In this document: piece after piece, positions 1,069 to 28,626 of the stretch
Position numbering within the stretch: the stretch's first letter is position 1
Layout: every line of letters starts with the position of its first letter
Source: Methanoculleus chikugoensis
Lineage (GTDB): Archaea; Halobacteriota; Methanomicrobia; Methanomicrobiales; Methanoculleaceae
DNA length: 64,000 nucleotides
NCBI RefSeq assembly: GCF_019669965.1
Contig: NZ_AP019781.1
Coordinates: 310,001 to 374,000 of the forward strand
Direction of reading: 5' to 3'
The notes under the pieces: model-generated
The model's input: the letters and a program-made list of their open reading frames with translations, nothing else
Databases searched by the model: none
Told to the model about the DNA's origin: nothing
Position numbers and translations under genes: made by a program

Positions 1069-1191
1069 CTCACGCGAAGACGCGAAAGCCGCGAAGATGG
1101 GGGGAGCGTTTATCACGGCCTTTGCGTTCTTCGCGGCTCGCACCCAGCCGTGCTCAAGCTCCTGCCCTGCGGCAGTCGCACTTCGCGTGAG
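1069..1191. repeat. Imperfect inverted repeat built from CGCGAAG motifs, with a two-hairpin insert
   Basis: The left arm (1069-1096) reads CTCACGCGAAG then GCGAAAGCCGCGAAG. The right arm (1123-1191) is its approximate reverse complement, interrupted by a segment with the two-hairpin repeat described at 22948-23445. Read on the minus strand, that insert has GTGCGA, a CTGCC/GGCAG stem, the linker GAGCTTGAG, and a second stem near GGTGCGAG. It sits between the convergent genes argB and chorismate mutase, so a terminator-like role is possible. The same arms occur at 23119-23250 in the opposite order. Confidence 0.75.
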
Positions 1192-9306: not shown

Positions 9307-9897
9307 ATGCCTAAGACGGTTATCGCACTGCTCGGGAGCCCGATCCTCGACGGGAACACCGCCCGCCTCCTCGACGAGGCCATCCGGGGCGTAGAGGAGG
9401 AGGGGGTCCGGGTCGAGAAGATCGAGGTCGCGCAGATGGACATCCTGCCCTGCATGGAGTTCTTCCAGTGCAAAGGGAGCGAGAACTGCCTGATCGAGGA
9501 CGAGATGACGGAGATCTTCCGGAAGTTCCGGGAGATGGACGGCCTGATCGTGGCGACCCCGGTGATGACGATGGGTGTTCCCGGGAGGCTCAAGTCGTTC
9601 ATCGATCGGTTCCAGGTCTTTTATATGGCGAAGTATCACCGGGGCAACTCATTTATCTCTCCTGAACGCCGGAAAAAACGGAAGATGCTTTTTATATCGA
9701 TCGCGGGGATGAATATCCCGAACGTCTTTGACGGGGTCAGGATGACCATGCAGGCGTTCGGGGAGATCATCGACTGCCCCCTCTGGGCCGAGGTGCTCCA
9801 GAACGACATGGACACCGTCCAGGATATCACTACGCGGCCGGAGGTGATGGAAGCGGCGTACCGGAAGGGCCGCGAACTCGGGCGGCTCTTACAATGA
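9307..9897 (+). CDS. Flavodoxin-fold iron-sulfur flavoprotein family
   Basis: A 196-residue member of the NADPH-dependent FMN reductase family. The FMN loop is LGSPILDGNTARLLD at residues 8-22. The cluster region is altered from the neighbours: it reads CMEFFQCKGSENC near residue 46, giving three cysteines with wider spacing, so a cluster may be incomplete or of another type. ATPVMTMGVPGRLKSFIDRF is the second flavin loop. The gene diverges from the zinc ribbon gene and its last nine bases overlap the end of the opposing CDF gene. A palindromic promoter element lies just upstream. Confidence 0.85.
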   Translation: MPKTVIALLGSPILDGNTARLLDEAIRGVEEEGVRVEKIEVAQMDILPCMEFFQCKGSENCLIEDEMTEIFRKFREMDGLIVATPVMTMGVPGRLKSFIDRFQVFYMAKYHRGNSFISPERRKKRKMLFISIAGMNIPNVFDGVRMTMQAFGEIIDCPLWAEVLQNDMDTVQDITTRPEVMEAAYRKGRELGRLLQ

Positions 9898-10935
9898 GCC
9901 GTCGGGTTCGATATGGACCACGACCTCCACGAGCCCCGGCACCGCCTCTTTGAGCCGCCGCTCCACCTCGTCGGAGATCGCGTGGGCACGGGGGACCGGG
10001 AGGGCCGCCTCGACGGTGATGTGGATGTCGGCGAAGATCTCGCCGGGTTTCCCCCGGCACCGGAACTCGTGGTACCCGGCCACACCGGGGGTGTCCGTCA
10101 CCACCGCCCGGATGAGTGCCGGGTCACAGGGGAGGTTCATCGCATCGGTGAGGACCTGCGCGGCTTCGTAGAGGATCCCGATCCCCATCCTTGCAATGAG
10201 GAGGCCGATGGCGAGTGCGATGACCGGATCGGCCGCCGGAAACCCGAGTCTGACGGCGAGGAACCCCCCGAGGACGGCGATCGAGACGAAGACGTCGCTT
10301 TTCGTGTGCTGGGAGTCGGCGACCAGGATCTGGCTTTGGTACTCCTCCCCCTTCCTCCGTTCATAGGTGGATACGGCGAGGTTGATGGCGAGCGTTCCGA
10401 CCATGACCACGACAGTGACAGGGGTGATCTCGGGGACGACCGGGACGATGAGCCGCCTGTACCCCTCGTAGAGGATCCCTCCTGCGGTCAGGAGGAGCAT
10501 CGCCCCGATGGCCAGGGTCCCGAGCGTCTCGATCTTGCCGTGGCCGTAGGGGTGTTCGGGGTCGGGGGGTTTCCCGGCGAAGTAGAGGGCGATTATGCCG
10601 ACGACGTTCGAGAAGGAGTCGAACCCCGAGTGGATGGCGTCGGCCACCATGCTCACCGACCCGGCGAGGAGGCCGAAGACCGCTTTTGCGACCGCGACGG
10701 CGAGGTTCAGCACGAGGACGAGGAGAAAGACCCGCTGCACCTTCCGGCCCGTCGCACTTGAATCCTCCTGGTCTTCTCGTTCTCCGGCCGTTCCGCCCGC
10801 CGCCCCCCTCACCTCCGGTGCTCCTGCTCCGGCACTTCGTCTCGTCGCACTCGAAGACCTTCGGTCCTCTCGAGCTCCGGTCGTTCCGTCCGTCGCAACC
10901 CTCATCCACCGGGGGTGGTGGTGTTCCAGCGGCAT
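9889..10935 (-). CDS. Cation diffusion facilitator (CDF) transporter with repeat-encoded N-terminal extension
   Basis: A metal/proton antiporter of 348 residues as read from ATG 10935. From residue about 69 it is a normal CDF protein: TM1, the metal site motif MVADAIHSGFDS (HxxxD near residues 102-106), the loop HPYGHGK, further TM segments and a cytoplasmic domain ending HIEPDGSL. Residues about 13-64, rich in Arg, Ser, Gly and Glu, are encoded by interspersed hairpin repeats (10745-10905) and resemble no CDF N terminus. A GTG at 10740 (VQRVFLLVLVL) would give a standard-length protein and leave the repeats in the leader, so the true start is uncertain. The metal is not predictable. Confidence 0.88.
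   Translation of the reverse strand: MPLEHHHPRWMRVATDGTTGAREDRRSSSATRRSAGAGAPEVRGAAGGTAGEREDQEDSSATGRKVQRVFLLVLVLNLAVAVAKAVFGLLAGSVSMVADAIHSGFDSFSNVVGIIALYFAGKPPDPEHPYGHGKIETLGTLAIGAMLLLTAGGILYEGYRRLIVPVVPEITPVTVVVMVGTLAINLAVSTYERRKGEEYQSQILVADSQHTKSDVFVSIAVLGGFLAVRLGFPAADPVIALAIGLLIARMGIGILYEAAQVLTDAMNLPCDPALIRAVVTDTPGVAGYHEFRCRGKPGEIFADIHITVEAALPVPRAHAISDEVERRLKEAVPGLVEVVVHIEPDGSL
10745..10905 (-). repeat. Hairpin-repeat copy overlapping the start of the CDF gene
   Basis: Read on the minus strand, the segment has GACC-GAA-GGTC (10856-10866, extendable to seven pairs), CACC-GGA-GGTG (10810-10820), the linkers CGGAGCTCGAG and GGAGCAGGAG, and GTGCGAC spacers. These are the same parts seen at 23244-23340 and 28555-28600. 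The reading frame of the CDF gene stays open through them. Confidence 0.7.
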
Positions 10936-10960
10936 AGGGTTTCCGGAGATTAAGATGAAA

Positions 10961-10970
10961 GGTTTAATAC
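10961..10970 (+). promoter_or_regulatory. TATA-like element of rubrerythrin
   Basis: GGTTTAATAC lies about 28 bases before the rubrerythrin ATG, the right spacing for an archaeal TATA box with a very short leader. The 58-base space also carries the promoter for the divergent CDF reading if that gene starts at 10935. Confidence 0.45.
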
Positions 10971-10993
10971 GAGCGTCCCGCAATGATCCATCC

Positions 10994-11494
10994 ATGCCGA
11001 CAGATGAGAACGCTCAGAATGCGTATGCCGGGGAGTCCCAGGCGAACAGAAAGTACTCGGTCTTTGCAGAGAAGGCAGCCGCCGAGGGGTATCCCGCGGT
11101 GGCAAAACTCTTCCGTGCGGCAAGCGAAGCGGAGGCCGTCCACGCGAAACGCCTTCTCTTCATCCTGAACGCCGTCGGGAGCACTGAAGAGAACCTGAAA
11201 AGCGCGATGGAGGGCGAGAACTATGAGTTCATGGAGATGTACCCCCCGTTCGTCGCCGAGGCGAAGAAGGAGCGCAAAAACGAGGCATCGATCGTCTTCA
11301 CCCATGCGATGAAGGCGGAAGAGGTGCACGCGAACCTCTACCTCCAGGCGCTCGAGGCCGTCCGGGAAGGCAAAGACCTCGATGCGGATAAGGTCTTCCT
11401 CTGCCCGGTCTGCGGCAACCTCGAGATCGGGGCGGCGCCGGAGAAATGCCCGATCTGCGGGGTTCCGGCGCGGATGTTCCGCGAAGTCCAATAA
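10994..11494 (+). CDS. Rubrerythrin
   Basis: A 166-residue peroxide-reducing di-iron protein. The ferritin-like four-helix part carries the Glu/His ligands in NAYAGESQANRKY (residues 9-21), ASEAEAVHAKR and MKAEEVHANLY. A C-terminal rubredoxin-like domain with CPVCGNLE and CPICGVP follows. This is the usual rubrerythrin layout and length. It reduces H2O2 with electrons from rubredoxin or NAD(P)H systems and is a main defence of anaerobes; two rubredoxins are encoded at 48128-48713. ATG 10994 was chosen because upstream in-frame sequence belongs to the opposing CDF gene. The next gene, a thioredoxin reductase fusion, starts 89 bases later. Confidence 0.95.
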   Translation: MPTDENAQNAYAGESQANRKYSVFAEKAAAEGYPAVAKLFRAASEAEAVHAKRLLFILNAVGSTEENLKSAMEGENYEFMEMYPPFVAEAKKERKNEASIVFTHAMKAEEVHANLYLQALEAVREGKDLDADKVFLCPVCGNLEIGAAPEKCPICGVPARMFREVQ

Positions 11495-22920: not shown

Positions 22921-23477
22921 TGTGCAGCCCACTGACATCAACTCATGCGAAGTGCGAGGGGTGGGGCATCCGGAGTTTGAGAAGCCATCAGGTCTTCGAA
23001 GTGCGACCTCCCCTGTGGGGGGGAGCATGAGAAGCCATCAGGTCTTCGAAGTGCGACCTCCCCTGTGGGGAGGGAGCATGAGAAGCCATCAGGCTTCGAA
23101 GGGGAGTAACTCCCAACCAACCTGATCTTCGCGTTCTTCGCGGCTCGCACCTACGGTGCTCAAGCTCGCTGCGCTCGCACTTCGCGTGAGATAGTTGGGT
23201 TGAGCACCAAAACGGCCTCACGCGAAGGACGCGAAGCCGCGAAGAACGACAGGCCGAAGGGCCGGAGTTCGAGCACCGTCAGGTGCGAAGTGCGACGTTC
23301 CGTAGGAACGGAGCTTGAGAAGACCGGAGGTCTTCGAGGCGCGAACACAGTGAGCGTGAGCACCGAAGGTGCGGGAAAGGAGTTCGAGCACCTAACGGAG
23401 TTCAAGCAACCTGAAAGTCTTCAAGCACCGGTGCTCCGGAGAATAACCTTTTTCATCCTCTCCGATGAGGGATCAGT
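22921..23477. repeat. Repeat zone made of hairpin units and CGCGAAG arms
   Basis: No gene is seen here. The region contains: a tandem array (22981-23100, period 50-51 bases); the CGCGAAG inverted element (23119-23250); and a run of small hairpins (23244-23445) including CGTTCC-GTA-GGAACG (23296-23310), AAGACC-GGA-GGTCTT (23320-23334) and CACC-GAA-GGTG further on. Hairpins are separated by linkers close to GGAGCTTGAG or CTTCGAG and preceded by GTGCGA. The promoter of the next gene lies at the end, close to 23445-23470. Confidence 0.8.
22981..23100 (+). repeat. Tandem repeat, 2.4 copies of a 50-51 base unit
   Basis: Copies start at 22981, 23031 and 23082 (the last truncated), each beginning GAAGCCATCAGG. 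Each full unit includes TCTTCGAA, GTGCGAC, and a stem CCCC-TGT-GGGG followed by GGGAGCATGA. The two full copies differ only by one base pair in length and an A/G change, so the duplication is recent or kept uniform. Confidence 0.85.
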
Positions 23478-28425: not shown

Positions 28426-28600
28426 GGTGCGACTTGCGACGTTCCCGAAGGGTGCGATGTTCCGGAGGACGACTGTCCGCAGGATGGCGATGGACAACCT
28501 CCGGAGTTTGAGAAGTCATCAGGATTCGAAAGAGAGTTTTGGCACCCCTCTACCGAACGACAGGCCGAAGGGCCGGAGTTCGAGCACCGGAGGTGCGAGT
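28426..28600 (+). repeat. Second hairpin-repeat zone
   Basis: No gene here. Small stems include CCC-GAA-GGG (28444-28452), TCC-GGA-GGA (28461-28469) and TCC-GCA-GGA (28476-28484). The 35 bases at 28555-28589 are identical to 23244-23278. GTGCGA, CCGGAGTTTGAGAAG and CACC-GGA-GGTG occur as in the other copies. It separates the orphan gene from the GNAT gene. Confidence 0.75.
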
Positions 28601-28626
28601 GCGGTGGAAGTCCGTGAGGCGCCGGG

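Follow-up and report, generated by a model that had tools for sequence, protein, structure and literature searches.

The conversion of intergenic repeats into protein sequence has been documented mainly for the Rickettsia palindromic elements (RPE). These elements are found in frame within many unrelated genes (PMC10969869). The Methanoculleus repeat described here has its nearest parallel in RPE in that it is dispersed, short and palindromic, and in that some copies appear to be read in frame in a protein and tolerated. However, its host is an archaeon, its unit is a modular 46-50 nt hairpin array, and none of the clusters surveyed has a copy inside a gene; its incursions are at gene ends, with one gene dominating. 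Given that insertion within genes was looked for and not found, this insertion habit sets the repeat apart and we do not class it as an RPE. By analogy, it may work like an RPE at a single gene end. The repeat is also similar to REP, ERIC and other small repeats or MITEs of bacteria, which have many intergenic hairpin copies and sometimes contribute ORFs (PMC10969869, PMC2229807), but its unit strings short hairpins together through fixed linkers. For non-coding repeat families, a survey of archaeal satellites lists other archaea (PMC6749651), and no description of the Methanoculleus repeat was found in the papers searched. The product of the gene that the repeat enters has the full domains and the conserved H and D positions (orthologue alignment) of the CDF transporters (Pfam Cation_efflux and ZT_dimer); unlike other CDF transporters, it has a predicted N-terminal tail that is encoded by the repeat and is absent from most orthologues.

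The CDF gene and its insert

The window is the whole stretch of Methanoculleus DNA that was analyzed (64,000 nt), and the host genome, whose relatives belong to Methanoculleus, is a single contig of 2,622,259 bases. The features of the locus are given below, where R1 is our covariance model of the hairpin repeat module.

9889..10905, minus strand: CDF (cation diffusion facilitator) transporter gene (Pfam PF01545 and PF16916), with its conserved ATG at 10905-10903
9889..10743, minus strand: conserved CDF core, which begins KVQRVFLLV (orthologue alignment; coding score +0.75)
10744..10902, minus strand: repeat-derived insert of about 53 residues between start codon and core, missing in 14 repeat-free orthologues and at the same place in 11
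10843..10878, minus strand: repeat module 1 (R1 match, 44.2 bits, E 3.5e-8)
10798..10830, minus strand: repeat module 2 (R1 match, 26.2 bits, E 3.5e-4)
10750..10785, minus strand: degenerate repeat module 3, GGAGAACGAGAAGACCAGGAGGATTCAAGTGCGACG (linker pattern and 75% direct repeat; no R1 match)
10934..10945, minus strand: TATA-like motif CGGAAACCCTAT, located some 30 nt ahead of the start codon and conserved in all 27 leaders, with one variant base in one (putative promoter element)
10994..11494, plus strand: divergent rubrerythrin gene (PF02915 and PF21349), a neighbor kept in relatives

The product of the minus-strand gene is, by its domains, a CDF transporter, as the earlier note had proposed. 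Both PF01545 (E 5.5e-49) and PF16916 (E 2.9e-18) were matched, covering a full Cation_efflux transmembrane domain and a C-terminal ZT_dimer dimerisation domain, and metal transport activity is predicted. Its back-to-back order with the rubrerythrin gene is common to all 27 relatives in which the extracted stretch includes both genes. The minus-strand ORF has no stop from 10995 down to the stop at 9889 and traverses three repeat copies, in agreement with the claim that the frame remains open through the repeats. These three copies of the dispersed repeat (10750-10878), two of them clear and one degenerate, lie in the insert, and a 67-nt repeat is present twice (10745-10811 and 10838-10904; identity 75%). 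A role for the insert in RNA structure was considered and dropped, given that 10600-11100 matched no Rfam family up to E 1 and that the insert folded no better than shuffles (z -0.81).

The repeat family and its position relative to genes

The repeat family is real, dispersed and hairpin-forming. In 30 aligned copies, GGAGYTYGAG is followed by a short hairpin and then by CGARGTGCGAC, with hairpin arms of AAGACC/GGTCTT, AAACCC/GGGTTT or CACC/GGTG around a short loop. The arms covary, with 96.8% of cells paired and a score of 0.24 versus 0.074 in shuffles, a value reached by 0 of 500 shuffles. The host genome contains about 132 R1 matches grouped in 71 clusters, and this covarying hairpin thus forms a palindromic repeat family dispersed through the genome. 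Besides the CDF insert, the window contains three further occurrences.

22972..23383, plus strand: intergenic array of the same repeat (R1 matches)
28503..28607, plus strand: intergenic copies of the same repeat (R1 matches, one weak)
1129..1162, minus strand: weaker intergenic copy of the same repeat (R1 match, 23.4 bits)

The arrays at 22972-23383 and 28503-28607 each mix several hairpin types. When 150 genomes of the order were searched more strictly, the repeat was present in at least 24 of 29 Methanoculleus genomes, with at least 16 strong matches in G038, a genome from another genus of the same family, and at least one or two copies in each of five further genomes of the order. No sampled genus of the family besides Methanoculleus and that of G038 was among the matches listed at the strict cut-off. 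Given the 16 matches in G038, the repeat family may predate Methanoculleus or have moved between genera. Separately, a 46-nt form of the repeat, with two hairpins per unit, is repeated in tandem in about 14 near-perfect copies at L264:2480-3110 in genome G007, which we take to be M. marisnigri, suggesting that the module can amplify in tandem too.

Neither the 68 clusters of the host genome beyond the window nor 20 clusters from M. marisnigri and SM3-B2 showed a repeat copy inside a gene. Since these clusters show no internal copy, we regard the repeat family as intergenic and the CDF site as a recurring exception across species. Nine ORFs near other copies were considered as N-terminal insertions and rejected, given that the repeat lies upstream of the likely start in nearly all of them (the short ORF L209 apart); these candidates resemble HisF, HIT, DHH, CofG-like and Lon-like proteins as judged by eye. 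At the other end of a gene, a copy in SM3-B2 (L271:1520-2029, plus strand) gives the last ~10 residues (RSLRNPKGFE) of a short conserved-looking protein, a C-terminal incursion.

The start codon and the state of the site in 27 species

We extracted the stretch from the rubrerythrin start to the CDF core and compared it in 27 species. All 27 leaders contain GGAAACCCTAT, a one-base variant of it, or at least its AAACCCTAT end, and in every species an ATG lies 28-33 nt downstream of this TATA-like motif, the counterpart in the window being ATG 10905. In the repeat-free species (n=14) the conserved ATG stands four codons ahead of the core (e.g., M-Q-G-D-R-V-Q-R). From the spacing of the CDF motif and ATG we infer an archaeal TATA box and a leaderless transcript; TTTAATA is placed equally far ahead of the rubrerythrin gene. 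In the four loci L037, L038, L044 and L053 (genomes UBA303, G030, G002 and thermohydrogenotrophicum), the rubrerythrin start and the TATA-like motif of the CDF gene are separated by ~60-160 nt of unrelated extra DNA, which sets the two putative promoters apart.

The earlier note had counted about 52 repeat-encoded residues at the N terminus and had offered two readings, a new tail or a leader upstream of a true start at GTG 10740. The length of the segment is upheld (about 53 residues, 10744-10902), and its translation into a new tail is the better supported of the two readings. The start at 10935 implied by that count is replaced by the conserved ATG 10905, and the predicted tail read from there includes MRVATDGTTGAREDRR. 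Starts at ATG 10935 or 10995 were rejected, given that 10935 forms part of the conserved TATA-like motif and shares the frame of the core in no more than 2 of 27 species; a protein begun at 10935 would open with 10 residues (MPLEHHHPRW) that derive from upstream DNA. Automatic annotation may misplace the CDF start at either position. Because the conserved ATG corresponds to 10905 in the window, both ATG 10935 and GTG 10740 are unlikely starts.

The comparison of orthologues revealed an empty site in 14 species and repeat DNA at the same place, between the conserved ATG and the core, in 11 of 27; in a twelfth carrier the sequence stops at a contig end. Between the ATG and the core, two early-branching species have 19 codons in which no repeat is recognisable. 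No orthologue compared combines the same N-terminal residues with an absence of repeat-like DNA. The comparison does not support a single ancestral insertion, given that the carriers are scattered on a three-protein tree (with weak branches) and that their joints differ; from the joints and the tree we count about four insertion histories.

With the conserved ATG as the start, the insert is in frame and open in 7 of the 11 carriers, the window included (54 to 162 nt), and out of frame in the other four, whose inserts are longer (302 to 569 nt). Insert lengths in related pairs of carriers differ by multiples of three. Segments of the same lengths taken in random frame from the other arrays of the host are open in 11% (162 nt) to 57% (54 nt) of cases. 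From these open fractions (0.11-0.57), the neutral chance of being both in frame and open is roughly 4-19% per species, although the species are related and represent about four insertion histories, so that the frame statistics are weaker than the raw counts and their support is moderate. Whether TGA appears in one of the frames depends on the seventh base of the module. This base is T in 88 of 125 other copies in the host genome and in 24 of 46 copies in relatives; in the coding inserts it is T at 0 of 12 stop-sensitive positions versus 3 of 5 harmless ones, and at 0 of 8 stop-sensitive positions when only the inserts read from the conserved ATG are considered.

Constraint on the predicted tail and loss of the frame

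The tail appears to be weakly constrained. Its codon-usage score is unlike that of host genes (-0.47 for the insert versus +0.75 for the CDF core). Between the window and Afa-1, pN/pS is 0.91 in the tail (19 codons) versus 0.31 in the core, and between UBA77 and G003 it is 0.61-0.64 (34 codons) versus 0.24. The tail is predicted to be disordered, with an AlphaFold pLDDT of 42-57 over the first 50 residues and above 85 over most of the transporter. The best explanation is a tail that is translated, tolerated and disordered, with little maintained beyond its frame, and we consider it probable, on the comparative evidence, that such a frame-kept, otherwise weakly constrained, repeat-derived tail is read from ATG 10905. 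The counterpoint is the four carriers that are out of frame from the conserved ATG.

Under this explanation, a normally intergenic Methanoculleus hairpin repeat would have entered the 5' end of the CDF gene directly behind the start codon. The gene would be transcribed leaderless, as the TATA-like motif ~30 nt before the ATG suggests, and a transcript of this kind would lack a 5' untranslated region, so that repeat DNA inserted downstream of the promoter would become part of the coding sequence. Microhomology may have guided insertion and set the frame, given that the insert edge GAAGGGTGCGACGG (repeat) resembles the gene codons CGGGTGCGGCGG; this resemblance at the joint may explain the recurrence at the CDF site. 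The ribosome would begin at ATG 10905, and the repeat would supply a charged, disordered tail of ~53 residues before the first transmembrane helix. Selection would hold the frame open while constraining the amino acids little, and relatives with long, frame-lost inserts would have come to use a new start ATG closer to the core.

We regard it as unlikely that the repeats of the window are a transcribed 5' leader with the start at GTG 10740 (no tail) or GTG 10812 (23-residue tail). The codon at 10740 is GTG in all carriers, which fits this start and microhomology equally, but the valine is encoded by GTA or GTT in 4 of the 16 relatives in which no repeat is recognisable, and a suitably spaced Shine-Dalgarno sequence is missing upstream of 10740. 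Within the array, GTG 10812 is preceded by GGAG at ~8 nt, and in three other species a Shine-Dalgarno sequence stands before a start that lies within their array; a leader would nevertheless leave unexplained the in-frame, open counterpart of ATG 10905 in seven carriers and the missing TGA in the stop-sensitive frame. The non-coding-like codon usage of the tail agrees with a leader and is expected for a translated tail alike.

It seems very improbable that the tail serves as a functional domain maintained for the sake of its amino acid sequence, e.g., for regulation or metal binding. The tail is charged, and GAREDQRPSSATGR-like residues recur in several species, but this likeness is accounted for by common repeat DNA, and other carriers read the repeat in different frames, with different residues. 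The near-neutral pN/pS, the predicted disorder and the absence of the tail in many relatives also speak against such a domain, for which the tail should not be taken. We give next to no credence to the idea that the open frame is a chance product of a GC-rich repeat, with the insert as neutral debris and the gene decaying or unexpressed. Stops do make up only 2.7% of codons in the arrays, and the frame is lost in four carriers, but the gene has an intact, conserved core (pN/pS about 0.3), and the insert is in frame and open in 7 of 11 carriers against a neutral chance of about 4-19% per species.

In M. marisnigri, M. sediminis and MH98A there are stops in the insert and a new ATG 21 codons before the core, preceded by the Shine-Dalgarno sequence AGGAGGTGAAGC or AGAGGTGAAGC, so that three of the four out-of-frame carriers have a new start of this kind. 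These three species suggest that the start moves once the frame is lost, and a leader would apply to them in part, since most of the array would lie upstream of the new start. In MH98A (L047, L068), a 106-codon repeat-made ORF runs from the conserved ATG, and its TGA overlaps the CDF ATG, so that the two could be translated in a coupled manner.

Collectively, we tentatively propose, at somewhat less than even confidence, that a genus-wide archaeal repeat inserts repeatedly into one and the same gene, behind its leaderless start codon, and makes new protein N termini, and that the array region supplies a new start when the frame is lost. The same site is empty, filled, in frame or out of frame across Methanoculleus, offering a stepwise view of coding gain and start relocation. 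If our proposal is true, this one locus would represent a natural series in which non-coding repeats become coding and start sites move.
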